DNA of 35,160 bases from positions 1 to 35,160 of the forward strand of contig VXUA01000050.1 of NCBI GenBank assembly GCA_009837185.1, in the 5' to 3' direction. The position numbers and the translations under genes were made by a program. This document shows positions 4,474 through 20,600 of this stretch, one piece after another. The notes beneath the pieces were generated by a model. It was not told where the DNA came from. It ran no database searches and worked only from the letters and a program-made list of their open reading frames with translations. The first letter of the stretch is position 1. Each line of letters starts with the position of its first letter. Source of the DNA: Gammaproteobacteria bacterium (GTDB lineage: Bacteria > Pseudomonadota > Gammaproteobacteria > Pseudomonadales > Azotimanducaceae).

Positions 4474-4828
4474 CTGATTGACCCATACAAGATGTAATTG
4501 ACTGTAGGTGTTGCACGACTCAAGCAACGGTTTTAATCCATCTGTATCCGCTACAAGATCTAAGCTTAGATCGAAATTCAGTTCAAAGTCAAGTCTTGAT
4601 CATCGGTGCACCTATCTGCGGCGGAACATACCAAGCACATGTTCGGCATCCATGTAGAACGTGAAATTTCATCGCACAGCTGATAAACGAAGAATGAAAG
4701 TCTTCGTTGCCGCTATTGAACTTCAACGAGCTATTCGATAATCACTGTCCAAATTTCACTCTCCGGTCAGAGCGCGTAGCACAGGGGAAACCAAAATATT
4801 TCTTGTCTCCTCGCCGAAGTAGGAGTTT
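4474..4828. other. Intergenic region before the division cluster
   Basis: No gene is supported here. A weak terminator candidate for the preceding gene lies at 4510-4534 (GTTGC and GCAAC pair, followed by GGTTTT). A perfect palindrome lies at 4557-4572. A seven-base-pair hairpin (ACGAAGA, loop, TCTTCGT) spans 4687-4707 without a T-run. No repeat of the TGGG-type boxes bound by MraZ was noticed. Confidence 0.4.
4557..4572. repeat. Perfect 16-base palindrome
   Basis: GATCTAAGCTTAGATC reads identically on both strands over all 16 positions. It lies between the HEAT-like gene and the dcw promoter, some 270 bases upstream of the -35 box. It could be an operator for a dimeric regulator or simply a hairpin. 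No second copy was noticed in the window. Confidence 0.5.
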
Positions 4829-4856
4829 TTGACTTCCTTATTGTAAAATATAGATA
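4829..4856 (+). promoter_or_regulatory. Sigma70-like promoter of the dcw operon
   Basis: TTGACT (4829-4834) and TAGATA (4851-4856) are separated by 16 bases, a good match to the sigma70 consensus. Transcription would start near 4863, about 30 bases before a strong Shine-Dalgarno sequence (AGGAAGG, 4884-4890) and 140 bases before rsmH. No other promoter is needed for the tightly packed genes that follow, although internal promoters, common in this cluster, cannot be excluded. Confidence 0.55.
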
Positions 4857-4896
4857 ACAACGTAGATTCTGTGCGTTTGGTCTAGGAAGGACGAAC

Positions 4897-4989
4897 ATGC
4901 AGGAGCCTTTCAATATACGTGATCTCTCAATTGAATGGAGGCAGCGAGTGGATTTCACGCAGAGCTATCAGATTAACACGTCCCGCTAG
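4897..4989 (+). CDS. Possible 30-residue leader ORF in the mraZ position
   Basis: ATG at 4897 follows AGGAAGG (4884-4890) with a six-base gap, one of the best ribosome-binding sites in the window. It opens a 30-codon frame (begins MQEPFNIRDL, ends INTSR) that stops at TAG 4987-4989, sixteen bases before the rsmH start. The site is where mraZ normally stands, but the peptide shows no MraZ features (no GRL.IP-type motif), so a remnant cannot be claimed. It may be a leader peptide that couples or tunes translation of rsmH, whose own ribosome-binding site is weak. It may also be a chance frame; the strong site and placement are the only support. Confidence 0.4.
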   Translation: MQEPFNIRDLSIEWRQRVDFTQSYQINTSR

Positions 4990-5005
4990 TTGATTTGAGC
5001 AGCTC

Positions 5006-5920
5006 ATGGTTGCGACCATACACGTACCAGTATTAGTACGTGAAGTACTATCAATGCTGGTCGTCCGTCCCAACGGAAATTACCTCGATGCTACATTCGG
5101 CGGCGGGGGACATACGCGCGCGATACTTGAAAACATCAGCGAAAGTGCAAGATTACTTGCCATTGACCGCGACCCAGATGCGATAGAACGTGGAAAACAG
5201 TTAGTAACTGAAGATGCAAGAGTCCAGGCCGATCATGCATCGTTCGATCAAATCGCAGACGTGAGTCGCCGCAATGGCTTTGAACAGTTTGACGGTATTC
5301 TTTTCGATGTGGGGGTTTCTTCTGATCAATTAGAAGATGGACATCGAGGGTTCAGCTTTCAAAAGAACGGACCTCTTGATATGCGCATGGATCCAACAGA
5401 TGGTAAGCCAGCTTCCGAGTGGTTGAATACCGCTTCTGTTCAATCAATCGCTACTGTTCTAAGAAAATATGGCGACGAACGAAATGCACGTCTAATTGCG
5501 AATGCTATTGTGCGTGCGAGGCCGCTCAGCGAGACTCAAGAACTAGTCGAAGTAATTAATCGAGTCTGTAAGACGCAAGAGGCCAACAAACACGTCGCCA
5601 CTCGTACGTTTCAAGCCATACGCATTCATGTCAACGACGAGTTAGCTCAGCTACGGCAGGGACTTCGTAATGCGTTTGAACTTATCGGTCATGCGGGTCG
5701 AATCGTGGTAATCACCTTCCATTCGCTAGAACATCGAACGGTACGACGGCAGTTTTCACAGTGGGTGGATTCTTCGATTCCCGCCCGAATGCCGATTCGT
5801 GGTCCCAATAAGGGTCCCATGAAAATCGTCGAGAGAGGTTTAAGTCCAAAGAGGCAAGAGACTGAGAGAAACCCTCGCGCGCGTTCAGCTGTGCTGCAGG
5901 TAATCGAGCGTGTCCAATAG
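5006..5920 (+). CDS. rsmH: 16S rRNA (cytosine1402-N4)-methyltransferase RsmH (MraW)
   Basis: Cytoplasmic SAM-dependent enzyme that methylates N4 of C1402 in 16S rRNA, in the ribosomal P site. The 304-residue length is typical. Visible signatures are the N-terminal HVPVLVREVL, the SAM-binding DATFGGGGHTRAIL (about residues 28-41), LFDVGVSSDQLE, GPLDMRMD, and the family-typical VVITFHSLEHRTVR towards the C-terminus. The ATG at 5006 matches where the family starts, though only a weak site precedes it. It is the first large gene of the dcw operon. Its last 11 bases overlap the start of ftsL, suggesting translational coupling. mraZ, the usual gene before it, is missing. Confidence 0.96.
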   Translation: MVATIHVPVLVREVLSMLVVRPNGNYLDATFGGGGHTRAILENISESARLLAIDRDPDAIERGKQLVTEDARVQADHASFDQIADVSRRNGFEQFDGILFDVGVSSDQLEDGHRGFSFQKNGPLDMRMDPTDGKPASEWLNTASVQSIATVLRKYGDERNARLIANAIVRARPLSETQELVEVINRVCKTQEANKHVATRTFQAIRIHVNDELAQLRQGLRNAFELIGHAGRIVVITFHSLEHRTVRRQFSQWVDSSIPARMPIRGPNKGPMKIVERGLSPKRQETERNPRARSAVLQVIERVQ

Positions 5921-6233
5921 TTCAACAGTACAAGCAGAGAAAAAACAACAAGCACCCCCTTGGTTTTGGTGGGCTTCGTGGGTTTGCGTTTTGGGTGGCA
6001 TTATTGTGATGGGATTTCTCATCATCTATCAAATCGACGAACGCTTAAGTCTCTACAATCAGATTCTTGAGCTACGTGTTCAACAAGACGATGCACTAGA
6101 AGAGCTAGAAAGTCTGAAAATTGAACGCGGAAGCGAGCGATCTTATGAGCGTGTTGTCGACATTGCGGTGAACGAACTTCACATGCAGTTCCCAGACAAG
6201 GTGGAAGTTACCAGTTCGGAGACGATCGAATGA
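5910..6233 (+). CDS. ftsL: Cell division protein FtsL
   Basis: Small bitopic divisome protein of 107 residues that, with FtsB and FtsQ, recruits and activates FtsW-FtsI. The GTG start at 5910 lies inside rsmH; the next in-frame starts would cut into the membrane segment. The order is a short cytoplasmic tail (about residues 1-20), one membrane helix (about 22-42, WASWVCVLGGIIVMGFLII) and a periplasmic coiled coil with heptad-like Leu spacing (about 50-75). The sequence is poorly conserved in all bacteria; identification rests on topology, length and position between rsmH and ftsI. Its TGA overlaps the ftsI ATG. Confidence 0.85.
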   Translation: MSNSSTVQAEKKQQAPPWFWWASWVCVLGGIIVMGFLIIYQIDERLSLYNQILELRVQQDDALEELESLKIERGSERSYERVVDIAVNELHMQFPDKVEVTSSETIE

Positions 6234-7888
6234 GCGAGTTCAGATATCGCCTGTTGTTCTTTGGCTTGAGTGTCGTAGTGCTGATACTCCTCTTTCGTAT
6301 GTTTTCGCTGGCGTACTTTGATCGAGAATTCCTTCAAGCCCGCGGTAGTGCAATCGCCGAGCGAACGATTGACGTTCCCACCAATCGCGGAATTATCTAC
6401 GATCGAATGGGGCAACCCTTGGCCTTGAGTATCCCCGTATATTCTTTTTGGACGGATCCAGGATTCGACACAATCGTGGATGAAGACATTCCAGCTTTAG
6501 CAGAAGCCTTAGCAGTTTCTGAAGAGCATTTACGATCAGTGTTATTTGACGGTCGAAACACTAGGTTTGTATACCTCAAACGGCGAGCATCAAGAGAGAT
6601 CGCGGACGCGGTGCAAGCATTGAAAGTAAAAGGTGTTCGATTTGAGACAGAGTATCGGCGTTACTACCCAACAGCAGAAGTTGCATCTCACATCGTAGGC
6701 GTGGCGAACGCGGATGGAACCGGTATTGAGGGTTTGGAAGCAGCACATGAAATCCAACTTCGAGGAGAACCCGGTAAAAGAAGGATCTTGCGTGGTCGTG
6801 ATGGACGACGATTGCGAGACATTGAACTTGCAGATCCACCTGAGTTCGGACAAGATGTGACCGCAACGGTGGACTTGGGTCTACAGTATTTAGCCTATCG
6901 ACACTTGCGAACTGCTGTGGAAGAACACGACGCTCTCTCCGCATCTGCAGTGGTTGTTGAAGTCAGTTCCGGCGAGATTTTGGCAATGGCGAATTACCCT
7001 ACGTTCAATCCTAACGACTTGCGCGATCGAGTTCCCGCACGGATGAGAAATCGAGTAATCAAGGATGCCTACGAACCCGGATCTACAGTAAAACCATTCT
7101 CTGCGATTGCGGCAATGGAAAGCGGACAATTCGATTCCGAGTCTCTGATACCAACTTCACCTGGATTTTTTCGTGTTGGCGACAAGCTTATTGAGGATCC
7201 CCGAGATTACGGCACGTTATCGTTGAAGATGGTAATCGTAAAGTCGAGCCAAGTAGGAATCGCAAAGGTTGCATTGGAATTAGAAAAAGAAGCTGTTTAC
7301 GACGTTTTAACTAGAGTCGGATTCAACGAGGTACCGTTTTGTGGCTTACCAAACGAAACTGCGGGAATATTACGCGTGGAGGAACTTGAACGCGAGATCG
7401 GTCGCACAACTTTTGCATTTGGTTACGGTATGACAGTGTCCCCTTTACAACTGGCGAAGGCTTACTTGACGTTCGCAACAGGTGGTAAACGTCGGACGGT
7501 TACGATTGTGAAGACTCCTACTCGTAGAGTGCCGCGAGATGAGCAAGTTCTCGATCCCGATCACGTGCGAAGCTTGATGAACATGTTACAAGCGGTTACT
7601 TCCATACCTGGTACTGCACCGAAAGCCGCAATAGAGGGGTTTTCGGTGGCGGGCAAGACCGGAACAGTTCGAAAAGTCAAAGATGGACAGTACGACGAAA
7701 ACTTACACATTGCGTGGTTCGTTGGAATTACGCCTGTTGAAGATCCAAGATTCGTAACTGTCGTAGTAGTGAATGAACCAAAGGGAGAAGTCGTGTCAGG
7801 TGGCGGGGTCGCGGCTCCCATTTTTTCGCGGATAACTGCACATGCATTGCAGTTGGTGCCGCCGAACTACCTAGCACAAGAGCGTTAA
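6230..7888 (+). CDS. ftsI: Septal peptidoglycan transpeptidase FtsI (PBP3)
   Basis: Class B penicillin-binding protein that cross-links septal peptidoglycan in the periplasm, working with FtsW. It has 552 residues with an N-terminal membrane anchor (about 8-28), a PBP dimerisation domain (RGIIYDRMGQPLA from about residue 53) and a transpeptidase domain. The active-site serine motif is S285-T-V-K288 and the third motif is K476-T-G-T479. The second motif, SxN in almost all family members, reads S339-S340-Q341 here (tcg agc caa at 7244-7252), within an otherwise textbook context (KSSQVGIAKVALE). Start ATG overlaps the ftsL stop (ATGA). Five bases separate it from murE. The substitution should not abolish the fold but may affect turnover or beta-lactam binding. 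Confidence 0.96.
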   Translation: MSEFRYRLLFFGLSVVVLILLFRMFSLAYFDREFLQARGSAIAERTIDVPTNRGIIYDRMGQPLALSIPVYSFWTDPGFDTIVDEDIPALAEALAVSEEHLRSVLFDGRNTRFVYLKRRASREIADAVQALKVKGVRFETEYRRYYPTAEVASHIVGVANADGTGIEGLEAAHEIQLRGEPGKRRILRGRDGRRLRDIELADPPEFGQDVTATVDLGLQYLAYRHLRTAVEEHDALSASAVVVEVSSGEILAMANYPTFNPNDLRDRVPARMRNRVIKDAYEPGSTVKPFSAIAAMESGQFDSESLIPTSPGFFRVGDKLIEDPRDYGTLSLKMVIVKSSQVGIAKVALELEKEAVYDVLTRVGFNEVPFCGLPNETAGILRVEELEREIGRTTFAFGYGMTVSPLQLAKAYLTFATGGKRRTVTIVKTPTRRVPRDEQVLDPDHVRSLMNMLQAVTSIPGTAPKAAIEGFSVAGKTGTVRKVKDGQYDENLHIAWFVGITPVEDPRFVTVVVVNEPKGEVVSGGGVAAPIFSRITAHALQLVPPNYLAQER

Positions 7889-7893
7889 CAACG

Positions 7894-9342
7894 ATGTTAC
7901 TTAGTGAAATCTTGGGTCGCAATGACGTACCCGCAATTGAAATTTCCGGAATATCAAACGATTCTCGAGAGGTAAGTCCTGGTGACCTTTTTATTGCCTA
8001 TCGAGGTGCGGAATTCGATGGTCACTCTTTTATCCAAGAAGCCGTGAATGCTGGTGCGGTCGCGATATGTGCCGAACAAGACCAACCATCTGATTTTCGA
8101 ATACCTTGGATCAAAGAGTACGACATAGCCCAACGTCAAGCGGAATTTGCGGCGCGTTTTTATGGATTTCCTTCGAGAGGGTTAAACGTCATCGGCGTGA
8201 CTGGAACGAATGGAAAAACCTCGGTAGCTTTCGGAATCGCAAATTTACTCGAAAGCACGGTATTCATGGGTACATTAGGTTGGGGGCCACCGAGCACTTT
8301 GGAAGAAACCCCACTCACAACCATAGGCTCTGTGGCACTTCAACAAAGTTTGAGTCAGGTGCTAGAACGAAATTTTGATCGAGTCGCGATGGAAGTTAGT
8401 TCTCATGCGCTAGCGCAAGGTCGAGTCAATCATGTGGAATTTGATGGTGCGGTATTTACCAATTTAACCCGTGACCACCTTGATTACCACAAGAGTATGC
8501 GCAACTATGCAGACGCAAAGATGAAACTCTTCGAACAATCTGAATTGAACTATGGAATTGTCAATCATGATGACGATTTTGGTCGCGTCATCATCGAAAA
8601 GTTTCAGCAACGGAACATTAAGTGTTTGACCTACGGAGCGAGTTCGAGTGCGGATTTGAGCTGGTCTGGAGTGCGGCACACTTCCAGGGGATTGTGTGGC
8701 CGTTGGCTCAGTCCTTGGGGCCATGAGGACTTTTTCTTGCCTTACTACGGGAGTATGTATGTATCAAATGCGGCGGCGATTTTGCTTACTAGTCTTTGTA
8801 ACGGTCAAAAATTTGCTGACGTAGTAACACGGATGCGTACATTACCGCCGGTACCCGGTCGCATGGAATTCATAAAAAAGCACGGTGAACTCACGGTAGT
8901 TATAGACTATGCCCACACGCCAGATGCCTTGCGACACGCACTCGTAGCTGCTCGAGCGCACGCGCAAGGACGCGTATTTTGCGTATTTGGTTGCGGTGGC
9001 GATCGTGATGCTGGAAAACGACCTGAAATGGGCCGCATCGCAGAGATTCTAGCTGACGAAATCTATCTCACGTCGGACAATCCCCGCAACGAATCACCGG
9101 ATTCGATAGTAGACGACATTATGCAAGGTATCGCCGAACCTGACTCAGTATTGGTTGAACTAGATCGCCATACAGCAATCCAGCTCGCTATTGAAGCTGC
9201 CACATCAAAAGACGTGGTGTTGATCGCTGGAAAGGGGCAAGAGAGTTCACAAGAGATTCAAGGACAAAAAATCCTAGGCGACGATCGATCGGTGGTAGAA
9301 AACATTCTCGAAGGAGCACATTGTGTTACTGTGGCTGACTGA
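7894..9342 (+). CDS. murE: UDP-MurNAc-L-Ala-D-Glu:meso-DAP ligase MurE
   Basis: ATP-dependent cytoplasmic ligase that adds the third residue to the peptidoglycan stem peptide. The 482-residue length is normal. The N-terminal UDP-binding part has [18 protein letters not shown]. The ATP loop is G104-TNGKT109, and the central metal and substrate region includes [10 protein letters not shown]. The D395-N-P-R398 motif is the established marker for meso-diaminopimelate rather than lysine, so the wall is of the Gram-negative type. It lies five bases after ftsI, and its last 20 bases overlap mraY. murF, which normally follows, is missing. Confidence 0.96.
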
Positions 9343-10399
9343 AAAATTAGCCGAACATAGCGGCGTGTTCAATGTATTTCACTACATTACTTTTCGCGCT
9401 ATGGTCGGCGCGGTGACAGGACTCGCGTTAACTCTTCTGTTTGGACCCATTGTGATCCGACAGTTCTCCCAACGAAATATCAGTGAGTCGATTCGACCCG
9501 ACGGACCTACTTCCCATCATACTAAGGCAGGTACCCCGACGATGGGCGGAATCATGATTGTCGTAGCAATTGTGATCGCAGCTTTGCTGTGGTGTGACTT
9601 AACAAGTCATCGGGTGTGGATTGTGCTGTTCGCATTAGTCGGCTTTTCACTGATTGGATTTCTTGATGACTTTCGAAAATTTCGACAACAACGTGGAATC
9701 TCCGCGGGCTTGAAATTTTTACTTCAGTCTGTGCTAGGTATAGGTATCGCCTTCGCACTTTTTGCGTTGGCTTCCCAACCTGAAGAAACCGAACTCATCG
9801 TTCCACTCTTCAAGGACGTCATCATACCCTTGGGAGCCGGGTTCATATTTCTCACCTATTTGATGATTGTAGGTATGAGCAATGCGGTCAATTTGGCGGA
9901 CGGATTGGACGGACTAGCGATCATGCCCGCGGTGATGATAGCTGCGGCTTTGGGATTTATCGCATATTTGGTTGGTCATGGTGAACTGTCCGCGTATCTA
10001 TTCATTCCGAATATTCCCGGATCGGGAGAGCTTGCGGTACTTTGCGGAATTATCGCCGGTGCCGGATTAGGATTCTTATGGTTCAATGCCTATCCAGCAC
10101 AAGTGTTCATGGGGGATGTAGGAGCCCTTGCGATAGGCGCTGCCCTAGGGGTAATCGGAGTTCTTGTTCGACACGAGATCGTACTGCTGATTATGAGTGG
10201 GATTTTTGTGCTCGAGACTGCGTCTGTCATCGTACAAGTCGCTAGTTTCAAGTTAACGGGCAAAAGGGTCTTTCAGATGGCTCCACTGCATCATCATTTC
10301 GAATTGAAGGGTTGGCCCGAGTCTCGAGTCATTATCCGCTTCTGGATCATTAGCTTCGTTCTCGTTTTAGTTGGATTGTCGATGTTGAAATTACGATGA
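9323..10399 (+). CDS. mraY: Phospho-MurNAc-pentapeptide transferase MraY
   Basis: Integral membrane enzyme that transfers phospho-MurNAc-pentapeptide to undecaprenyl phosphate, giving lipid I. It has 358 residues and about ten membrane helices. Key motifs are [12 protein letters not shown] near the N-terminus, [32 protein letters not shown] and the C-terminal HHHFELKGW, which hold the catalytic Asp and His residues of the family. The GTG start at 9323 is fixed by AAGGAG at 9311-9316 with a six-base gap and by the family N-terminus MLLWL. It starts inside murE and shares ATGA with murD. In most relatives murF separates murE and mraY; here they overlap directly. Confidence 0.96.
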
Positions 10400-11700
10400 A
10401 ACAAGAACGCGATATCGTATTAGGCTTAGGTGCAACAGGCTATTCCGTCGTGCGCCACTTACACACTCAGTGCCCACTGTCAGTATTCGACTCTAGATTG
10501 GGACGAGACGCACACGCGATCCCATTTCTAAACAACGTTCGCATGGACTATCCTGACGTTGATGTTATTTCTCCTAGAGGGTATAAACGCGCGTTAGAAA
10601 GCGCGCGTCGCGTTATTGCAAGTCCGGGCATTCCCCTGTCGAACAGTATGCTCAAATGGGCACAGATAGAACGAATTCCAGTAGTCGGAGACATCGACTT
10701 GTTCATGGAACAAGTCAGAGCTCCGGTGATTGGGATCACCGGTACCAACGGGAAGAGTACCACGGTAAGTCTAGTTGTCGACATGTTGCAGGATCGAGGT
10801 TTCGTTGCGTGTGGGAATATCGGAACTCCCGTACTCGACACGTTGAAGTCCAAAGCCACGGGATATGTTCTGGAACTGTCAAGCTTTCAATTGGAGAGAT
10901 TGCAGAAAGGACCATTTAAGGTTGCGAGCATTCTCAACATTAGCGAAGATCATTTAGATCACCACGGGTCTATGGAACACTACAGAACTGCAAAGCAACG
11001 AATCTATCAAGACGCGGAATTTGCGGTTTATGACCATCTCCGACCAGAAACTATACCCGACAAAATTCTTCCAGGCGTTGAGTTAAATAGAGATCCAGAT
11101 TGGACGGTTCGCGAAGAAGGAATAACAGTTGGTGGAGAGTTGCTCCAACTGAGTGAAATCGCGTTGTCTGGGTCGCACTATCTACAAAACCTACTCACCG
11201 CGGCCGCGATTTCGATTCAACTCGGTGCCAGCATCGAAGATGTCGCGCGCGTCGCTCGTACGTTTGAGGGTCTACCCCATCGAGCACAAACGATAGGTAC
11301 CTTTAACGGTGTTGAGTTTATCAACGATTCAAAAGCGACAAATGTCTGTGCCGCAATTGCTTCTATACAAGAACAGTACGAAGAAGGTTCCAAACTCATC
11401 CTCATTTGTGGTGGCGATGGTAAAGCGGCCGATTTCAAAGAATTGGGAGTGTGTATCGACAAACTTGTCTCACACACGATACTGTTCGGCAACGATGCAC
11501 AGAGCATTGCATCGTGTATTCACCGTACTGGTTACGAGTTTGTGACGTCCATGGATGACGCTGTATCAGTCTCGGTCAACTTAAGCCAGTCAGGCGATAA
11601 GGTCTTGTTAGCACCAGCCTGTGCTAGTTTCGACATGTTCAACGACTTTGCACACCGAGGAACTACCTTTACGAAGTGCGTATCGGAGCTGCTAGGATGA
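10396..11700 (+). CDS. murD: UDP-MurNAc-L-alanine:D-glutamate ligase MurD
   Basis: Cytoplasmic ATP-dependent ligase that adds D-glutamate to UDP-MurNAc-L-Ala. It has 434 residues. A Rossmann-like N-terminus ([15 protein letters not shown]) is followed by SPGIPLSN, the ATP loop [11 protein letters not shown] (about residues 113-123), [20 protein letters not shown], and FINDSKATN in the C-terminal part, all typical of MurD. Its start overlaps the mraY stop, and its stop overlaps the preferred ftsW start, so translation is probably coupled along the three genes. Confidence 0.96.
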
Positions 11701-12806
11701 TCAATCGACTTGATCCATTTGTCGCATGTTCGACATTCTTGCTAATTGCTCTGGGCTTAGTCGCCATAGTTAGTGCTACGATCTATCGTGCAGATGAGGT
11801 ACTCAATCCCTATGTGGTCCGGCATGCTATTTATATGCTGTTGGCCGTCGCAGTTTTTATTACCTTGCTGCACATTCCATTAGCGTTGTTTCATAAGTTT
11901 CACAAGATACTATTCTTGGGAACACTAGTGATCTCGGTATTAGTACTGATTCCGTGGATCGGTGTGGTGGCTGGTGGTGGTCGTCGATGGATTGATTTAG
12001 GATTGATGACGGTACAAGTTACCGAAGTGGCTAGATTCTTGGTTCCAGTATATGTTGCAGGACATCTAGCGAATACCTACTCTGCAATTAGGGTTTCGAC
12101 CGCAGCAACACTCAGACCCGTATTTTGGGTTGGTATCTTACTTGTCCTTTTCATACTGCAACCTGATTTTGGTTCGGCAGTACTAATCGGAGGTGTTACC
12201 GTTGGTATGTTGTATGTTGCGGGCGCACGATTCCGTGATTTGATCCTACTCGCGATAGTTGGTGCGGGTGGTTTAGCTTATGTCTTCTACCATCGCTGGG
12301 ATCGAATCACAGCTTTTCTGGACACGTGGACGCATTCCTCGGGTGAGGGTTATCAACTTGCACAATCATTGATTGGATTCGGCCGCGGAGAGTTAACTGG
12401 CGTTGGTTTAGGCGATAGTGTTCAAAAGCTCCTCTATCTCCCAGAGTCGCACAACGACTTTATTTTTTCCGTCATCGTCGAAGAAACAGGATTTATAGGA
12501 GGTGCTTTGCTGTTGCTGTTGTTGGTTGCCTTGGTGTGTCGCTGCTGGCAAATTGGCAAACACGCACTCGAACATGAACGTTATTTCGCTGGTTATATTG
12601 CGTTCGGTGCTGGGTTAATGTTGGGCTTTCAAACTCTAATAAACGTCGGTGTTACCATGGGCGCGCTACCTACAAAAGGGCTAACGCTACCGTTTATAAG
12701 TTTCGGTGGAAACAGTCTTCTAGTGTGCGTCGCACTCGTCGCGTTGGTTTGCCGAGCTCGCGCGGAAACATTAAATCCCGAATTACGACGAGACAACCTT
12801 GCATAA
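11697..12806 (+). CDS. ftsW: Septal peptidoglycan polymerase FtsW
   Basis: SEDS-family membrane glycosyltransferase that polymerises lipid II at the septum together with FtsI. From the ATG at 11697 it has 369 residues and about ten membrane helices. The signature regions are GGGRRWIDLG, QPDFGSAVLIGG, LPESHNDFIFSVIVEETGF and the C-terminal TKGLTLPFISFGGNSL. The in-frame GTG at 11676 would add seven residues, but the ATG overlaps the murD stop (ATGA) and is preceded by GGAG at 11685-11688, so I prefer it. One base separates it from an ATG of murC. murG, the usual next gene, is absent. Confidence 0.95.
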   Translation: MINRLDPFVACSTFLLIALGLVAIVSATIYRADEVLNPYVVRHAIYMLLAVAVFITLLHIPLALFHKFHKILFLGTLVISVLVLIPWIGVVAGGGRRWIDLGLMTVQVTEVARFLVPVYVAGHLANTYSAIRVSTAATLRPVFWVGILLVLFILQPDFGSAVLIGGVTVGMLYVAGARFRDLILLAIVGAGGLAYVFYHRWDRITAFLDTWTHSSGEGYQLAQSLIGFGRGELTGVGLGDSVQKLLYLPESHNDFIFSVIVEETGFIGGALLLLLLVALVCRCWQIGKHALEHERYFAGYIAFGAGLMLGFQTLINVGVTMGALPTKGLTLPFISFGGNSLLVCVALVALVCRARAETLNPELRRDNLA

Positions 12807-12807
12807 G

Positions 12808-14232
12808 ATGAAAGGAATGCCAGAACACACGTTCGAAGGGATGCCCTTGATGCGTCGCGTCCGGAATGTGCACTTTGTTGGTATAGGTGGTGCGGGGATG
12901 TGCGGTATTGCCGAAGTTATGCATAACCAGGGTTATAAGATTACTGGGTCTGATCTGATTGCAAATCACGCAACCGAAAGGCTACAGGGTTTAGGTGTAA
13001 CGGTGCATGAAGGGCACCGCGCGGAATATATAAGAAATGTAGATGCAATAGTCATTTCAACTGCTATTCCTGCGAATAACGCCGAATTACAAGCTGCTCG
13101 GAATGCCCGTACTCCTGTTGTGACTCGAGCGGAAATGCTCGGTGAATTACTCAGAGCACGGTATGGTATTGCGGTGGCCGGAAGTCATGGAAAAACCACA
13201 ACAACGAGCCTCATCGTAAGCATATTTAATGAGGCTGGCTGGGATCCAACTTATGTGATCGGTGGCTTGTTGCGCAGTGAGGGGCGACATGCGAAGTTAG
13301 GTGGGAGCCGCTATCTTATAGCTGAAGCAGACGAAAGTGATGCTTCCTTTCTCTACCTAAATCCATTGGTAGCGGTGATATGCAATATCGACCGCGATCA
13401 TCTTGCCACCTATGATCACGATTACAACCGCCTACTGCAGAGTTTCCAGGAATTTGTACACCGATTACCGTTCTATGGACTAGCGGTAGTATGTTCCGAC
13501 GACTACGGGGTTCAACAGATTCTAAATGAACTCGCCCGCCCGGTAATAACCTACGGTTTGAATAAGGACGCAGACTATCGCGCTTTGGACATTCAGTATG
13601 AGGATACCAGGTGTAAATTTAGGGTCGTTCGACCTGATGGTCAGGCAACCTTAGACGTTGAGACTTGTCTGCCCGGTACCGAGAATGTTCGAAATGCCTT
13701 AGGAGCAGTCGCGATCGCGTCAGACGAAGGTGTACCAGATAGGTACATTGTCGACGGTTTGCGGAACTACGAAGGAATACACCGTCGTTTTGACACCGAA
13801 ACGCTCACAGTGGACGGTCACAACATCGTGCTTCTCGACGATTATGGACACCATCCCACAGAACTTGTACATATGGTGTCGACCGCGCGTGAGCTGTACC
13901 CCGAAAGGCGTATTTTCATGGTCTTCCAACCGCACCGGTTTACACGTACGCGGGACTTGTTCCACGACTTCGTTGAGGTTTTGGAACGAGTCGACCATTT
14001 GGTCGTAGTTGACACATATGCGGCGAGCGAAGAACCGATCATTGGGGCACACGCGAGTGATCTCACGGCCGCAATTGTCCACAAAGATTTGGTACCAACA
14101 GCTTTTGCATCAACGACGCAAGAAGCGCTGGATTACGTGTTGGAGAATATTCAAGACAACGACGTACTAATCGTTCAAGGTGCAGGGAGTGTGGATCAAG
14201 TTTCAACTCAATTACGAGCTTTGGCACAATGA
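12808..14232 (+). CDS. murC: UDP-N-acetylmuramate:L-alanine ligase MurC
   Basis: ATP-dependent ligase that starts the stem peptide by adding L-alanine to UDP-MurNAc in the cytoplasm. About 474 residues. The nucleotide-binding N-terminus (HFVGIGGAGMCGIAEVM), the ATP loop (AGSHGKTTTTSL), EADESDASFL, NIDRDHLATY and DDYGHHPTEL in the C-terminal domain mark it as MurC rather than Mpl. The start is uncertain: TTG 12799 overlaps ftsW, ATG 12808 follows the ftsW stop by one base, and ATG 12850, preceded by GAAGGG at a nine-base gap, would place the family motif nearest the N-terminus. Its TGA overlaps the ftsQ start. Neither murB nor ddl follows, unlike in most relatives. Confidence 0.95.
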   Translation: MKGMPEHTFEGMPLMRRVRNVHFVGIGGAGMCGIAEVMHNQGYKITGSDLIANHATERLQGLGVTVHEGHRAEYIRNVDAIVISTAIPANNAELQAARNARTPVVTRAEMLGELLRARYGIAVAGSHGKTTTTSLIVSIFNEAGWDPTYVIGGLLRSEGRHAKLGGSRYLIAEADESDASFLYLNPLVAVICNIDRDHLATYDHDYNRLLQSFQEFVHRLPFYGLAVVCSDDYGVQQILNELARPVITYGLNKDADYRALDIQYEDTRCKFRVVRPDGQATLDVETCLPGTENVRNALGAVAIASDEGVPDRYIVDGLRNYEGIHRRFDTETLTVDGHNIVLLDDYGHHPTELVHMVSTARELYPERRIFMVFQPHRFTRTRDLFHDFVEVLERVDHLVVVDTYAASEEPIIGAHASDLTAAIVHKDLVPTAFASTTQEALDYVLENIQDNDVLIVQGAGSVDQVSTQLRALAQ

Positions 14233-14966
14233 AGACGCTGATCCGGTTTTCTCTGGGGTTAATGATCGGAATGGCGTTGACTGCTAGCGCGATCTATGGA
14301 TATCACTTCATATATGACTATGAACCAAGCATCGTCGTGAACGGGAAGTTAACCGACAGCGAAAAACTCGCAGTTGCAGAGACGGTTATCAGAGAGGTAG
14401 ACCGGTCGGGTCGATGGGTGTCGTCCCTTGGTCTCACAGAGTCGTTACTTGAGCTTCCGTGGATCCGAGACGTTTCCATTGCACGTTCGCTTGACAACAG
14501 AATTAATGTCAATGTGGAGGTGAAGAACATTATGGCTCGCGTAGATGCAGATACTGCATTAACTGAACACGGTGAAGTAATCCAAACCATGCGCGAACCT
14601 CCGAGTTACTTACCCACAGTGCAAGGGTACCCGCACAAACAAAATTCAACTGACGTCGAAACCCTAAAAAAAGTGCGTGCCAAATTCGCTCTCGCCGGCG
14701 AGTGGGTATCACTGTTTGAGCTGACGGAAGAAGGGTGGCACATCACCTTGGACACGGGACACAGCGTGTTATTAGGGGACCGGGACTTAGTCGCGAGAGC
14801 TGGTAGATTTTTGCGAATCTATCGAGATTTAGACACTTCGAATGAAGACACAATCATTGTTGCTGATGCGAGGTACAACCACGGCGTAGCAGTACGTACC
14901 GAACCACGCGACGCAGATTCTCCTAGTGATTCCGATGTTGCAGTTGAAACAGTGCAAGGAGAATGA
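14229..14966 (+). CDS. ftsQ: Cell division protein FtsQ
   Basis: Bitopic inner-membrane divisome protein that scaffolds FtsB and FtsL. It has 245 residues: a very short cytoplasmic tail, one membrane helix (about residues 7-26), then a periplasmic POTRA-like domain (about 33-105, including LELPWIRDVSIARSLDNRINVNVEVKN) and the FtsQ domain, ending with the family-typical VADARYNHGVAVR. The acidic C-terminal tail after it is long. ATG overlaps the murC stop, and ftsA starts three bases after its TGA. ddl, which usually precedes ftsQ, is absent. Confidence 0.92.
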   Translation: MKTLIRFSLGLMIGMALTASAIYGYHFIYDYEPSIVVNGKLTDSEKLAVAETVIREVDRSGRWVSSLGLTESLLELPWIRDVSIARSLDNRINVNVEVKNIMARVDADTALTEHGEVIQTMREPPSYLPTVQGYPHKQNSTDVETLKKVRAKFALAGEWVSLFELTEEGWHITLDTGHSVLLGDRDLVARAGRFLRIYRDLDTSNEDTIIVADARYNHGVAVRTEPRDADSPSDSDVAVETVQGE

Positions 14967-14969
14967 GAT

Positions 14970-16232
14970 ATGAACACTAAAACCAAAAACTCCGATCAAG
15001 GAAAAGTATTAGCTGGCTTAGATCTCGGCACAACAAAAGTTTCTGCTTGCATGGGAAGAACTTGTGCCGATGGGTCCATAGAGATCACTGGTATTGGTAC
15101 CAGACCATCAAGTGGTGTTCGGCACGGTATGGTCGTGAATATCGAAGCCACTGTAGAAGCGGTTAAAGAAGCAATTCAAGAAGCCGAATCGATGGCAGGT
15201 GAGAAGATGAACTCAGTGCACGTAGCTATCGGTGGAGAACATATTAAGTGCGTAAATTCTCAAGGAAACGCGGCAATTCGTGAGGGCGAGGTAACTAAGG
15301 CTATTCTGGATCTAGCGTTGGAGTCGGCCATTGCTATTCCTCTTAGTAACGACGAAAAAATCATTCATGTGATCCCACAAGAGTATGCGATCGATTGGCA
15401 GGACGGCATTAGAGAACCAAGTGGTATGTCGGGGACTCGACTCGACGCGAATTTTCATGTTGTAGTGGGTGCAAAAAACGCGCTCAGCAACATCGCCAAG
15501 TGTGTCGGTATGTGCGGTCTTGACATTCAGGACATCGTCGTTGAACCGATCGCGGCCGCCACGTCGGTACTCACTGACGAGGAAAAAGAGCTTGGAGCCG
15601 TACTACTCGATATCGGTGGGGGAACGACGGACGTAGCTGTCTATACTGACGGTTCGCTAAGGCACACTGAAATAATTCCAATAGCTGGGGACTCAGTAAC
15701 GCGCGACATCGCGATGACATTTCGAACCCCAGCACAACATGCGGAACAAGTAAAGATCAAGTATGCGTGCGCGTTGCAAGAACTGACCGACGAAACAGAA
15801 TCGATTCGCGTTCCCGGTCTTGCGGATCGGCCGGCGACACAGATTCCTCGTCAAATGCTTGCTTCAGTAGTGGAGTCTAGGTACAGAGAACTGTACAATT
15901 TAGTTCATAACAAGTTGCAAGAAGCAAAAATTTCTAAGGAAAAACTTGGATCCGGTGTTATACTTACCGGTGGAGCAGCAACCATGGAAGGAGCTGCTGA
16001 ACTCGCAGAGGAGATTTTTCATCTCCCCGTGTCCAGCGGCAAGCCAAAAAATCTTCAAGGATTGAACGACCTATATGACAACTCTGCGTTTTCCACATGT
16101 ACCGGTTTGCTGGTATATGCTAGTTCTCGGAAGCGTGGATGGATGTATGAACCCAGGGAGTCTCGAAATGGGTTCAAGTTCTCGTGGCGAGCCATTCGTA
16201 CGTGGCTGCACAAAACATACAAACAAATTTAA
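14970..16232 (+). CDS. ftsA: Cell division protein FtsA, actin-like membrane tether for FtsZ
   Basis: Actin-fold ATPase that anchors FtsZ polymers to the inner membrane and recruits later division proteins. It has 420 residues. ATP-binding motifs are AGLDLGTTKVSACMG near the N-terminus, LLDIGGGTTDVAVY in the middle and GVILTGGAATMEG towards the end. The C-terminal WRAIRTWLHKTYKQI looks like the amphipathic membrane-targeting helix of the family. The start is set by AAGGAG at 14956-14961, eight bases before the ATG. It lies between ftsQ (three-base gap) and ftsZ (15-base gap). Confidence 0.96.
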   Translation: MNTKTKNSDQGKVLAGLDLGTTKVSACMGRTCADGSIEITGIGTRPSSGVRHGMVVNIEATVEAVKEAIQEAESMAGEKMNSVHVAIGGEHIKCVNSQGNAAIREGEVTKAILDLALESAIAIPLSNDEKIIHVIPQEYAIDWQDGIREPSGMSGTRLDANFHVVVGAKNALSNIAKCVGMCGLDIQDIVVEPIAAATSVLTDEEKELGAVLLDIGGGTTDVAVYTDGSLRHTEIIPIAGDSVTRDIAMTFRTPAQHAEQVKIKYACALQELTDETESIRVPGLADRPATQIPRQMLASVVESRYRELYNLVHNKLQEAKISKEKLGSGVILTGGAATMEGAAELAEEIFHLPVSSGKPKNLQGLNDLYDNSAFSTCTGLLVYASSRKRGWMYEPRESRNGFKFSWRAIRTWLHKTYKQI

Positions 16233-16247
16233 GTTGAGGTCTAAGTG

Positions 16248-17561
16248 ATGGAACACACAGATACTGGACACGAAAATTTCAAGTTTTCGATACCTGACGA
16301 GAATCAAACGCCGCTCGGCTCGGAGCCGTTTAAATTTGAACCAGCCATAGAAGGCGACGCGGATGTTTCCGCACCGGCGGTGGTAAAAGTCATCGGGGTA
16401 GGAGGAGGCGGCGGTAACGTCTTGAGCTACATGGCCGATTCCGGTTTAAGTGGCGTCGAATTCATCGCCGCGAACACGGATATACAAGATTTGCGTTCTT
16501 TACCCGAGTCGATTCGTAAATTGCAGTTGGGTACTCCTCGACGCCGAGGTCTGGGCGCTGGGATGAATCCGAGTACCGGTGAAGCAGCCGCGAAGGAATC
16601 AATCACCGAAATCGAAGATGCATTGGATGATGCGAATTTGGTATTCATTATTGCGTGTTTAGGTGGAGGTACCGGTTCCGGTGCTGCACCTGTGATTTCT
16701 GAAGTCGCTAAAGAGAAGGACATACTAACGGTTACGATCGTCACGTTGCCATTGATGGAAGAGCAGATCGTTCGCAAACGTAACGCAGAAATTTGTCTGC
16801 GGGATTTGCACGCTATCGCTGATTCGGTGGTCGTAATTCCTAACGATAAGTTATGTAAGGTGGTCGACGGCTCGATGGGCTTTTCTGCTGCTTTCAACGA
16901 GATGAACGACTTTCTGGCTGAGTCGGTAAAGGGCGTAGCTGACGTAATCAACACGGCGGGGCTATGGAATTTAGATTACAAAGATGTTGAGTCCGTTTTA
17001 GCGTCCAATGGTGACGGGGTAACCTTAATAGGTAAAGGGATCGCGACGGGTCAAAATCGGGCTGAAAACGCTGTGCGCGCGGCTTTGAATAGTCCACTCA
17101 TGGAGGACACGGATCTCAGTGGAGCTCGCAGCGTACTGTACAACGTGCGTGCGAACGATTTGAGCTTTGATGAAGCACGACACATCATGCGCATCTTCAA
17201 TGAGATCATGATCGCGTCGGGAGGTTCTGGAGGTGTTTTTCCCGGAATCGTGGATGACCCAACCATGGGCGAGCAGCTGGAGATTACCGTATTGCTCACA
17301 GGAGTCGACCGCGGTCTTAATAGCCCTTCGTCAATGGAAGTGGATACTCATCAGCGCGACAGTCACTCAACGCGCGAACGCCCCAAGGTTTATCGTCCTG
17401 AACCTCGAATAGAAGAACACGCCACTCCGAGTCAAAAAGTTGGGGAAGAGCAGGCGGGAGATAGAGTGATAAGCGGAGGTTCGCGAACGATTTCTCGTCC
17501 GGCGGGACGCAGACTCAACACTAGTGATATTCCTGCGTTATTTCGAGATCAAGCGGATTGA
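16248..17561 (+). CDS. ftsZ: Cell division protein FtsZ with N-terminal extension
   Basis: Tubulin-like GTPase that forms the Z ring. 437 residues from the ATG at 16248, which GAGGT at 16236-16240 supports over the GTG at 16245. Present are VIGVGGGGGN (about 48-57), AANTD, the tubulin signature LGGGTGSGAAP, IPNDKL, the T7-loop NLDYKDV with its catalytic Asp, and a C-terminal SDIPALFRDQAD that matches the peptide binding FtsA and ZipA. Two oddities: the GTPase core starts about 33 residues later than in E. coli, after an extension with two FKF motifs (FKFSIPDE, FKFEPAIE), and the usual TKPF stretch reads TLPL with a changed neighbourhood. It is the last gene of the operon, followed by a terminator. 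Confidence 0.96.
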   Translation: MEHTDTGHENFKFSIPDENQTPLGSEPFKFEPAIEGDADVSAPAVVKVIGVGGGGGNVLSYMADSGLSGVEFIAANTDIQDLRSLPESIRKLQLGTPRRRGLGAGMNPSTGEAAAKESITEIEDALDDANLVFIIACLGGGTGSGAAPVISEVAKEKDILTVTIVTLPLMEEQIVRKRNAEICLRDLHAIADSVVVIPNDKLCKVVDGSMGFSAAFNEMNDFLAESVKGVADVINTAGLWNLDYKDVESVLASNGDGVTLIGKGIATGQNRAENAVRAALNSPLMEDTDLSGARSVLYNVRANDLSFDEARHIMRIFNEIMIASGGSGGVFPGIVDDPTMGEQLEITVLLTGVDRGLNSPSSMEVDTHQRDSHSTRERPKVYRPEPRIEEHATPSQKVGEEQAGDRVISGGSRTISRPAGRRLNTSDIPALFRDQAD

Positions 17562-17654: not shown

Positions 17655-20600
17655 TCAGAAAGTAATACGACTCGCGATGACCATTCCGGAATTTGATCTC
17701 CTTTCCTCTCTCGTAGTGAAAGAAGAAATGTCAAGTAAGAACCGACCTAGTCCTACGTTTGCCTCGGTGATTCGAACTCCCAGTTTCAACTGGTTTCCGA
17801 GGGCGAAGCGTGCGACCGCTCCGTAAGGTTCTATTAAACCCCTACGATCCGATGAAATTCCGTATGAAATCTCGATTTCACTACGAAATCCCGCGACAGG
17901 ACTATCGAACGAAGTGTGCATAGGTAGTTTTAGATCAAAGCTTAGCTCTTGTAGTGATGAATTTCCCCAGGCCGGAGTGAACTGAAAGTTTAGACCGGAA
18001 CCATCTGCACCACTTTCACGACGAACGTCGAACTGAATTCCGAAGGATTGATAAGCGTCGGTTTCCATAGATCGAACAAATCGTAGTTGCCCGCTGGCAG
18101 ACCAATTGTCGGTGAAGAAAATATCTACTTGTCCGGCAATGTCGAGATTTGTTCCATCGGCAACTCCTCCATCTTCAAAGCGACCAAGGAACTCGCCGGT
18201 GAGGACCAAATCTAAGTCTACAGTCTTATAGTATCGTCGGCCTTGTATTCCAACTCTAAGCCTTCGAACAGAATTTGACAGTGAGCCATCAAAGTCCTCA
18301 GAATCGTCAGTATCGATATCGGATTGAAACAGATCTCCCTTCAGAGCAAATCCATTCTCGCCTTTGTCATCAAAGTTGAAGTGAACTCCCGTTGCGAGCA
18401 CAGTTGCGGTGAGGCCAAGATCGTCAATTTCACCCCAGCGATCTGTGAGCGTGGCAGAGCCGGTCGCGCGACCGAGAGTCCCCCATACTCTCAGTTGTTC
18501 ATGCAGCTTGCCTATCACATACGGATGTAGACTCGTGAGAGAGAATTCGACATTGTCTTGATCGGTATTGTTTACCGTACCATTTTGCAACCTGTCGACG
18601 TCCACATCACCTGTAGCGCGCGATACCGCAATTCCTAAACGAACATCCTCCGTGACTCCGAACTCTGCACCTAACCAAATACTAGTTGTTTGAGCTTCCA
18701 ACGAAGAAACGATTTCCTCATTTTCAACAACTTCCATGGGATTAGCATCGCGCTGTGTCGTGTCAAAACTAGCCCACGCAGCCCAGTCGAAGCCGTTTGC
18801 AGCATCGGTGGATCCGTTCGAGTTGTTGAGTACGAAATTTGCTGATCGAGGGAGCATTGATAACAGTCGAGAGTAAGGATCAACGGGTGATCGATTCTTG
18901 TAGTGAAGTCGAGAAGTCGGTACCTGTCCATTGAATTTTGGCACCAGTGAGAAATCTTTGTCGCTAAAGTAATACGGCGGTTTATATCCTTCGTCGGTTT
19001 GCCGTTGAGTTGCATCTATTAGGTTCGCACGGTTGCCTATTCTCTCTACCGCGCCTTCACCGAGCATTGTTCCCGCAACACCTAGGGCATGGATTAGCGG
19101 TCGAGAACGGATTTCGACAGGAACTTTGGTCGTCGTGAACTCCATCCATGCTGACCAATCGCTGGGTCCGACGTCGTTGATTGCGCGAATGCGAACCTCA
19201 TAGCTGGTCTGAGGAAGCAAATTTGTTGCAGTAAAGCTTGTGCTCGTAGGATCGTGCTGAGTGACATTGTTTTGCTCCTCAGATTCTCGCAGTTCTAAGT
19301 CATACGATGTAATACTCGATCCTCGCGCATCCGGTATAGACCAGGAGATATGTGCAGATTCATAACCAATGTCTTCAATCATCAAGGCTGGAGTGAGTGG
19401 TGTATTTGCGGCGACGGTAATCTCAAACGTCAAAACAGACTCGTCGTCCTCCATAAATTCATCCGAATCAGCAACGGTGTAAGTGTATGTAGTAGTAATT
19501 TGAGTTGCCGTAGGTGTTCCGCTGAGGGTCCGAACATTAGGGTTGAAACGAATCCCGGTTGGAGGAGCAGGAGAAAGAGAATAGACTAAATAACCATCGC
19601 CCTCTGACGCGCGTGGTAGTTCTAAGGTTGCAACTGATTCGCCCACTTTATAAGATTGGTTCGGTATCGATGTTCCCATGGCGAATACAGGGCGAGAATT
19701 CTTAATAGTACTAGCAGAAAGATCGTCAGACCAAGGTCCAGTTCCAGCAACGTTGACCGCGCGCACACCAATGAGATATTCGGTCCCTTGTTCGAGTCCA
19801 GTAATCGTGAAAGAAGTCGTTCTTGTTTCTTCTTCGATCCAGGTTTCGGCACCTTTCTCGCGATAACGCACATCATAGACCACCACTCTGCGGCCGCCGT
19901 TATCTGCTGGTTGATCCCATTCGATAGACAATGTCTCGGTGCTGGCTTCCACCAAGGAAACATTTCGAGGTGCGCTAGGAGTCGCATACGGTCTAGTTTC
20001 CGCCTCGAGAATACTAGAAAAACCGACATGTCCCGATTCTGCGACGTTTTTCACCCGAATCTGGTAGGTCGTATTTCGCGTCAGTCCAGTGATTGTGTAA
20101 CTTGTAGCCGGCGCATCGATCCGTTTTCTCTTCCATCGCGAAGTCCCCTTTACGCGATATTCGATCTCGTGCTCTACAACTGGCACAAAAGGTGTTGATA
20201 CATTCTCCCACCGAATAGTGATGCGATCGGCGTGGGCTCGTTGAACAGAGAGGTTGATGGGAGCTTTGGGTGCTTTACCGAACACTCGAAAAGAAAACGT
20301 CAGTGAATCAGTCTCTCCTTCGATGTCGGTAGCAGTGTAAGTGTAGGTGGTTCGTTTAGTCGTAACCGTTGCGGTTCCCTTTAGTTTCCCTGTCCGTCGT
20401 ACGATTTCCAAAGCGTCCGGTAAATCAGGATCGACCGAATACGAAACTGGTCCGTCGCCACCAATTGCCAACGGTAGTTGAATCTCAACATATTCGCCCA
20501 AGGTAAGATCGTCTACTTCGGCTTTTGCATCTTCTGCGAAATACAGCGGTTCGGAGACGTTTGTAACTTCAACCGTAACCATCACAGACGATTCGAGTTT

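Follow-up and report, generated by a model that had tools for sequence, protein, structure and literature searches.

What became of murF, murG and ddl in a division and cell wall (dcw) cluster that lacks all three, and which enzymes now do their work? The question is raised by contig VXUA01000050.1 (assembly GCA_009837185.1) of a gammaproteobacterium of the Azotimanducaceae, whose positions 1 to 35,160 (35,160 nucleotides; the window) were analysed here and carry such a cluster at 5006-17561. Genes of the dcw cluster are often treated as vertically inherited and as held together by co-translation and protein contacts. We consider it likely (probability about 0.8) that the native murF, murG and ddl were displaced long ago by acquired genes and that the operon copies were then deleted. 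Genomes, loci, contigs and families are cited below by our own codes (G, L, C and f) where they have to be told apart; f1 is the family of this genome. Genes of the cluster were identified with NCBIfam models, as follows.

5006..5920, plus strand: rsmH (mraW); TIGR00006, 313 bits (cut-off 154)
5910..6233, plus strand: ftsL; TIGR02209, 34.9 bits (under the cut-off of 42.45); named by position
6230..7888, plus strand: ftsI; best model NF011685, 398.4 bits (under the cut-off of 737); named by position
7894..9342, plus strand: murE; TIGR01085, 489.5 bits (cut-off 257)
9323..10399, plus strand: mraY of the native gammaproteobacterial type; TIGR00445, 398 bits (cut-off 192); junction gene in the place expected of murF
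10396..11700, plus strand: murD; TIGR01087, 356 bits (cut-off 212)
11676..12806, plus strand: ftsW; TIGR02614, 316.8 bits (under the cut-off of 337.5)
12808..14232, plus strand: murC (ATG at 12808, in-frame TTG at 12799); TIGR01082, 487 bits (cut-off 335); junction gene filling the place of murG
14229..14966, plus strand: ftsQ; NF008043, a weak 28.2 bits (cut-off 366); named by position and junction, filling the place of ddl
14970..16232, plus strand: ftsA; TIGR01174, 428 bits (cut-off 176)
16245..17561, plus strand: divergent ftsZ of 438 amino acids; TIGR00065, 295.1 bits (just under the cut-off of 295.2)

Although the models for ftsL, ftsI, ftsW, ftsQ and ftsZ scored under their cut-offs, gene order and neighbours settle these identities. 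The order rsmH-ftsL-ftsI-murE-mraY-murD-ftsW-murC-ftsQ-ftsA-ftsZ, all on the plus strand, and the absence of murF, murG and ddl from it had been described in an earlier note on this DNA and were borne out by the models. The note had also counted murB as missing from the standard order, which was a mistake: the cluster of Escherichia coli K-12 has no murB, nor was it hit in the same-order clusters L114 and L115 (tblastn with the MurB of this genome, a query that does match dcw murB elsewhere), and its absence is thus not a departure. Likewise, the same survey gave no ddl hit in some other gammaproteobacterial loci (e.g. L060, L066 and L067). What truly departs from the standard order is the absence of murF and murG and, to a lesser degree, that of ddl.

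The three tight junctions reported in the earlier note were each confirmed by direct reading of the sequence. The overlap of murE and mraY is 20 bases long, the GTG of mraY lying at 9323 inside murE (TGA at 9340-9342) and an AAGGAG ending 6 bases upstream of that GTG, also within murE. A single base separates the TAA of ftsW (12804-12806) from the murC ATG at 12808 (the mechanically called open reading frame starts at the TTG at 12799), and murC and ftsQ have the ATGA at 14229-14232 in common. The same intervals were measured, with start codons chosen mechanically, in 17 related loci (11 from f1 genomes and 6 from named contigs of metagenome-assembled genomes), where gaps ranged from -41 to +16 bases for murE-mraY (14 loci) or murE-murD (3 loci without mraY) and for ftsW-murC (17 loci); the murC-ftsQ gap was -74 to +20 bases in 15 of the 16 loci in which it could be measured and +109 in L042. 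In E. coli and two genomes of the same order, the corresponding intervals were 1335-1363, 1050-1117 and 910-942 bases. An assembly artefact, that is, a mis-joined contig or collapsed segments, might be suspected in a draft genome of 86 contigs (2.77 Mb, 95% complete), but all 17 related loci, which come from other assemblies, join tightly at the murF and murG places; this explanation is therefore already refuted and its probability is negligible.

A genome-wide homologue search, suggested in the earlier note, found all four families elsewhere in the assembly, each as one full-length open frame over its curated profile cut-off.

C3:95583-96617: murG; 258.8 bits
C16:51401-52618: murF; TIGR01143, 304.6-304.8 bits (cut-off 288.6)
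C3:57176-58123: murB; 189.8 bits
C12:24553-25461: ddl; 267.2 bits

The earlier note had reasoned that an intact group of the missing genes elsewhere would make this simple relocation. Movement as one intact group is ruled out, the four genes lying at four places on three contigs; murG and murB are about 37 kb apart on one contig, and murF overlaps an arginase/agmatinase-like gene (named from a reading of the sequence) by four bases. Missing pathway steps are ruled out as well, and since all four families are encoded, the gene set of the peptidoglycan precursor pathway is complete. In alignments, the MurG of this genome keeps GGGTAGH, GGSLGA and the Glu/Gln/Asn positions of the N-acetylglucosamine (GlcNAc)-transferase site, whose catalytic roles we take as given, and its MurF keeps GSSGKTT and DDSYNANP; these motifs support ordinary catalysis by both predicted enzymes. 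The absence of the genes from the cluster had led the earlier note to offer, as one option, a lineage with different enzymes for D-alanyl-D-alanine (D-Ala-D-Ala) addition and lipid II synthesis. The versions encoded here do appear to be of other ancestry (see below), but they belong to the ordinary families, score over the cut-offs and retain the transferase and ligase motifs, so that a different chemistry is highly improbable. What sets the pathway apart is where its parts come from and where they are encoded; its chemistry is conventional.

To place the layout among relatives, one set of 58 genomes was searched for MraY, MurF and MurG. Of these, 37 belong to family f1 (18 to the genus of this genome, itself counted, and 19 to other genera), and the remaining 21 represent 21 other families of the order. 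This order is very probably Pseudomonadales of GTDB, since in the MurG tree its coded families cluster with Pseudomonas, Marinobacter and Halomonas. In all 21 genomes from outside f1, murF is directly adjacent to mraY, and murG follows a few kb further downstream on the same contig. By comparison, murF was full length in 33 of the 37 f1 genomes (and partial in G011) and adjacent to mraY in none of them, and murG was found in 35 (as two pieces in G012), again never adjacent to mraY; in G015 it shares the mraY contig but is 370 kb away. Scores did not overlap between f1 and the other families, either for murF (251-329 vs 337-467 bits) or for whole murG (196-262 vs 316-378 bits). The same layout was seen in 6 of 80 named loci (L028, L042, L047, L054, L068 and L080). 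Overall, the comparison of dcw order across relatives that the earlier note had called for showed a layout without murF and murG that is common to family f1.

Gene neighbourhoods around the relocated functions are also shared. A phosphoglycerate-dehydrogenase-like gene (under the model cut-off) downstream of murG in this genome recurs in 11 of 20 f1 murG loci, an Hda-like gene (also under its cut-off) upstream of it in 14, two frames further upstream in 15 and 19, and the divergent 371-amino-acid frame in 15; of 23 murF loci, some of them short, 17 have an SppA-like gene (named from a reading of the sequence) close by. Together with the tight joins, these neighbours are consistent with a single acquisition and a single loss of each gene prior to the diversification of the family. 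Two oddities were seen in f1 genomes: G003 has two MurF genes 8 kb apart (C13:58557-59774 and 66829-68046), both over the cut-off, and in G024 the MurG frame (C34:79448-80485) is interrupted by one internal TGA.

The simplest alternative, which the earlier note had put as genes that moved elsewhere, is that the native dcw murF, murG and ddl were relocated and then diverged fast. All the genes are indeed present elsewhere in the genome, and a case of plain relocation exists: in L022 (genome G064), from a gammaproteobacterial metagenome-assembled genome, no murF was hit between murE and mraY, a canonical MurF is encoded elsewhere (469 bits), and this protein falls among the gammaproteobacteria in the MurF tree. 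For MurG, this account is contradicted by features of subfamily, beyond a long branch. The MurG of this genome passes the PRK12446 model NF009102 (351.3 bits, cut-off 339), on which E. coli MurG scores 128.8, Legionella adelaidensis 440 and a Staphylococcus aureus plasmid protein 425.7, and it shares the motifs of the PRK12446 group in alignment; within f1 only this MurG was scored on the model, the others being placed by tree alone. Its best match outside itself among 398 Pseudomonadota genomes, in which f1 is represented by this genome only, reached 139 bits and 35% identity. Among plasmid records the best matches were L. adelaidensis (266 bits, 41%), Anoxybacillus (251 bits) and Aureispira (241 bits), so that identity is 38-41% to the five best plasmid-record MurG (Legionella, Aureispira and Bacillales) vs at most 35% to the 397 other Pseudomonadota genomes.

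The MurG tree (85 rows; every fourth of the 80 named loci; proteins under 320 amino acids dropped) held the MurG of this genome and those of 20 of the other 34 f1 genomes with a find. All 21 f1 rows fell with 7 references not of the dcw type, apart from 52 Proteobacteria and 5 other canonical rows. Forcing a clade of f1 with the 41 gammaproteobacterial MurG was rejected by 195.7 log-likelihood units (approximately unbiased (AU) test, p 1.3e-63), as was a clade with all 52 Proteobacteria (149.1 units, p 3e-82). With 20 PRK12446-type rows added, f1 stayed one group, one of the 7 references (Nonomuraea) switched side, and a clade of f1 with 12 canonical proteobacterial rows was again rejected (p 2e-8). 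Relocation is thus already rejected for MurG. Taken together, the profile score, the motifs and the trees strongly support the view that f1 MurG is a xenologue with an ancestry other than the native gammaproteobacterial dcw MurG.

A PRK12446-type protein as the sole MurG is not unique to f1. NF009102 passed its cut-off in 21 of 369 gammaproteobacterial genomes (this one and 20 in 11 other families) and in 0 of 14 controls, and in those 20 genomes the protein was the single match and the only MurG-family protein detected. The MurG of one family, f164 (probably Legionellaceae), groups with L. adelaidensis. On an Anoxybacillus plasmid (L174, NZ_CP015440), a murG of this group has genes for MurF, a Ddl-like ligase, a polysaccharide deacetylase and a circular bacteriocin in its vicinity; the set may be a cassette for self-protection or for remodelling of the wall.

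MurF was searched in 390 genomes of the order, where the protein of this genome gave at least 271 bits in 17 of 18 f1 genomes (itself included), no match in the remaining one (G239) and at most 186 bits elsewhere. It does not reach the cut-off of the gammaproteobacterial model NF008041 (168.6 bits, cut-off 551; E. coli 914). In a tree of 64 rows (every third of the 80 named loci; proteins under 400 amino acids dropped), all 29 f1-type MurF, 24 from f1 and 5 from named genomes of the same layout, formed one clade (support 100/100); four alphaproteobacterial rows fell on its side (100/99), and 28 gammaproteobacterial and 3 Gram-positive rows stood apart. A clade of f1 with gammaproteobacterial MurF was rejected by 46.6 log-likelihood units (AU p 0.028). 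The view that f1 MurF is a xenologue is fairly well supported by these comparisons.

The Ddl of this genome is over the cut-off of the D-Ala-D-Ala ligase model NF002378 (282.4 bits, cut-off 243). In a tree of 35 rows (odd-numbered named loci; proteins under 270 amino acids dropped) in which f1 is represented by this genome only, it grouped with a Ddl from an Acinetobacter sp. plasmid (100/99) and lay outside the 31 Ddl encoded in dcw clusters. For this genome, the tree supports Ddl as a probable xenologue, with less certainty than MurG. MurB has no part in the anomaly, being of the ordinary E. coli type (NF000755, 315.8 bits, cut-off 277) and no dcw member in E. coli.

Divergence was also gauged with a yardstick, in which the protein of this genome and that of E. 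coli were compared for median identity to gammaproteobacterial loci (80 loci, 50-80 per gene, selected by MraY, six of them with the layout seen here; matches covering >70% of the query). Most native dcw proteins of the window were 2-11 points under the E. coli median (MraY 59.5 vs 62.8%, MurE 40.9 vs 42.5%, MurD 36.5 vs 43.9%, MurC 49.1 vs 56.8% and RsmH 43.1 vs 53.6%), and MurF (30.4 vs 43.5%), MurG (28.2 vs 46.6%) and Ddl (33.4 vs 51.8%) were further below.

According to the reading that we prefer, an ancestor of family f1 would have acquired versions of murG, murF and ddl at other loci and carried both gene sets side by side for a time; the dcw copies would then have been deleted, leaving compact, translationally coupled junctions. 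The acquired enzymes would have taken over the native jobs, Ddl making D-Ala-D-Ala, MurF adding it to UDP-N-acetylmuramoyl (MurNAc)-tripeptide and MurG adding GlcNAc to lipid I to give lipid II; that they carry out these functions we infer from their sequences. Of the idea that the genes moved elsewhere, the presence of homologues elsewhere stands, but MurG, and less surely MurF and Ddl, come from other branches of their trees.

Several observations weigh against displacement, or against parts of it. FtsZ, a native gene in its place, shows 36.6% vs 60.6% for E. coli FtsZ on the yardstick; fast evolution thus does act on some native genes here, distance alone is no proof of other origin, and the divergence of FtsZ in this genus favours relocation, as does the modest rejection for MurF (only p 0.028), in a test set up after the tree was seen. 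The MurF references were thin (4 alphaproteobacterial and 3 Gram-positive rows) and the bootstrap had not settled; MurF does not reach the cut-off of the alpha-type model NF010693 either (255.5 bits, cut-off 544; E. coli 257.4), and no close donor appeared among plasmid records (best 191 bits). The Ddl result comes from one f1 sequence among four rows outside the dcw group (this one and three others), and this Ddl may be an old paralogue instead of an import. Support for the f1 MurG group was moderate (89/42 in the 85-row tree, 85/96 in the enlarged one), which leaves room for more than one MurG acquisition. A profile search found no murG in G016 and G034 among the 37 f1 genomes, and a TIGR01143 search found no murF in G012, G022 and G033; murF was likewise not found in the genome of L068. 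These absences may be assembly gaps, yet G022 is 98% complete. Finally, no genome with both gene sets was seen among those examined, so that acquisition before loss is the order we infer. On balance, relocation followed by fast divergence remains unlikely as an account of all three genes, and displacement remains the better one.

The length of FtsZ also sets this genus apart, with 429-439 amino acids in the four loci of the genus that were measured vs 381-398 in other f1 and named loci; FtsZ of G006 is only 31% identical to the nearer of the E. coli protein and that of this genome.

In a few genera of f1, mraY seems to have gone the same way as murF and murG. No native mraY was found in five f1 genera, four of which carry a divergent MraY-like gene: the best MraY match in G018, G024, G030 and G036 was such a protein (87.9-95.7 bits to the MraY of this genome; 106-124 bits on TIGR00445, under the cut-off of 192). 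No MraY was detected in G019, nor in G001, a genome of the genus studied here that is 78% complete. In the three dcw clusters of this set in which the join was read (G019, G024 and G030), murE is directly followed by murD.

L110:6025-7074: divergent MraY-like gene (349 amino acids), in f1 genera without a native MraY find; also in L227, L228 and L229

The G030 copy shares 71-79% identity with the other three proteins, and all of these MraY-like proteins keep the DD, NxxNxTDGxDGL and MGDxGS motifs, with HDH where E. coli has HHH, the roles of all of which we assume. No close relative was found (best 95 bits among plasmid records, 103 bits among solved structures). In the MurF tree, G018, G019, G024 and G030 group together and G036 lies elsewhere. 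A broader scenario, that the family swapped MurF and MurG (and Ddl, if this genome is representative) at or before its root and MraY later in a few genera, driven by toxins, phages or antibiotics hitting the native enzymes, is doubtful, and the driver is a conjecture.

Compared to the dcw cluster of E. coli K-12, the 11 kept genes have the same order and strand and are overlapping or closely spaced; here there is no mraZ beside rsmH, no murF, murG or ddl, and lpxC does not directly follow ftsZ. In the window, no frame of 100 amino acids occurs upstream of rsmH at 4474-5005, and E. coli MraZ was unmatched before rsmH in loci L101-L104 of the same genus and matched in most f1 loci of other genera. 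Between ftsZ and secA, the place of lpxC in many other loci, the minus strand at 17655-21998 encodes a 1447-amino-acid protein with fibronectin type III and Ig-like domains.

Among known systems, the MurG of this genome groups by tree with plasmid records of Cytobacillus, Anoxybacillus and Aureispira and by score with L. adelaidensis and the S. aureus plasmid. Unlike other carriers of the PRK12446 type, f1 is a family of the Pseudomonas order with a murG locus that much of the family shares, beside an Hda-like gene, and it combines this MurG with a MurF and, in this genome, a Ddl of apparently other ancestry. A Streptomyces plasmid MurG-like protein (n=1) misses the NF009102 cut-off (255 bits, cut-off 339) and branches on the f1/non-dcw side of the MurG trees; it is a stand-in for, and not itself, MglA, a distant MurG homologue outside the dcw cluster that, according to PMC8092295, can replace MurG in Kitasatospora and Streptomyces. 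As described there, MglA is an extra copy beside native MurG, shown by mutants, whereas f1 MurG is the sole copy and its role is predicted from sequence. In Cyanobacteria, dcw genes are present but dispersed in the genome, according to PMC8871954; genes are scattered in both cases, but the cluster studied here remains compact and has lost only particular enzymes, apparently replaced by other versions. Among the matches listed from open-access literature on MurG2, Legionella dcw and related topics, nothing concerned this family or arrangement.

Thus, murF, murG and ddl are absent from the division and wall operon of an entire family, whose lipid II is probably made by a type of MurG that also occurs in Legionella and in plasmid records of Bacillales. 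In a number of gammaproteobacterial families, no MurG type other than this second one was detected, and MurG, MurF and Ddl are unsafe as phylogenetic markers in this order. Such genomes offer a natural way to ask whether the genes for MurG and MurF have to lie beside those of their partners and, if the stepwise swap is true, the family would show which Mur enzymes can be replaced independently of their operon partners.

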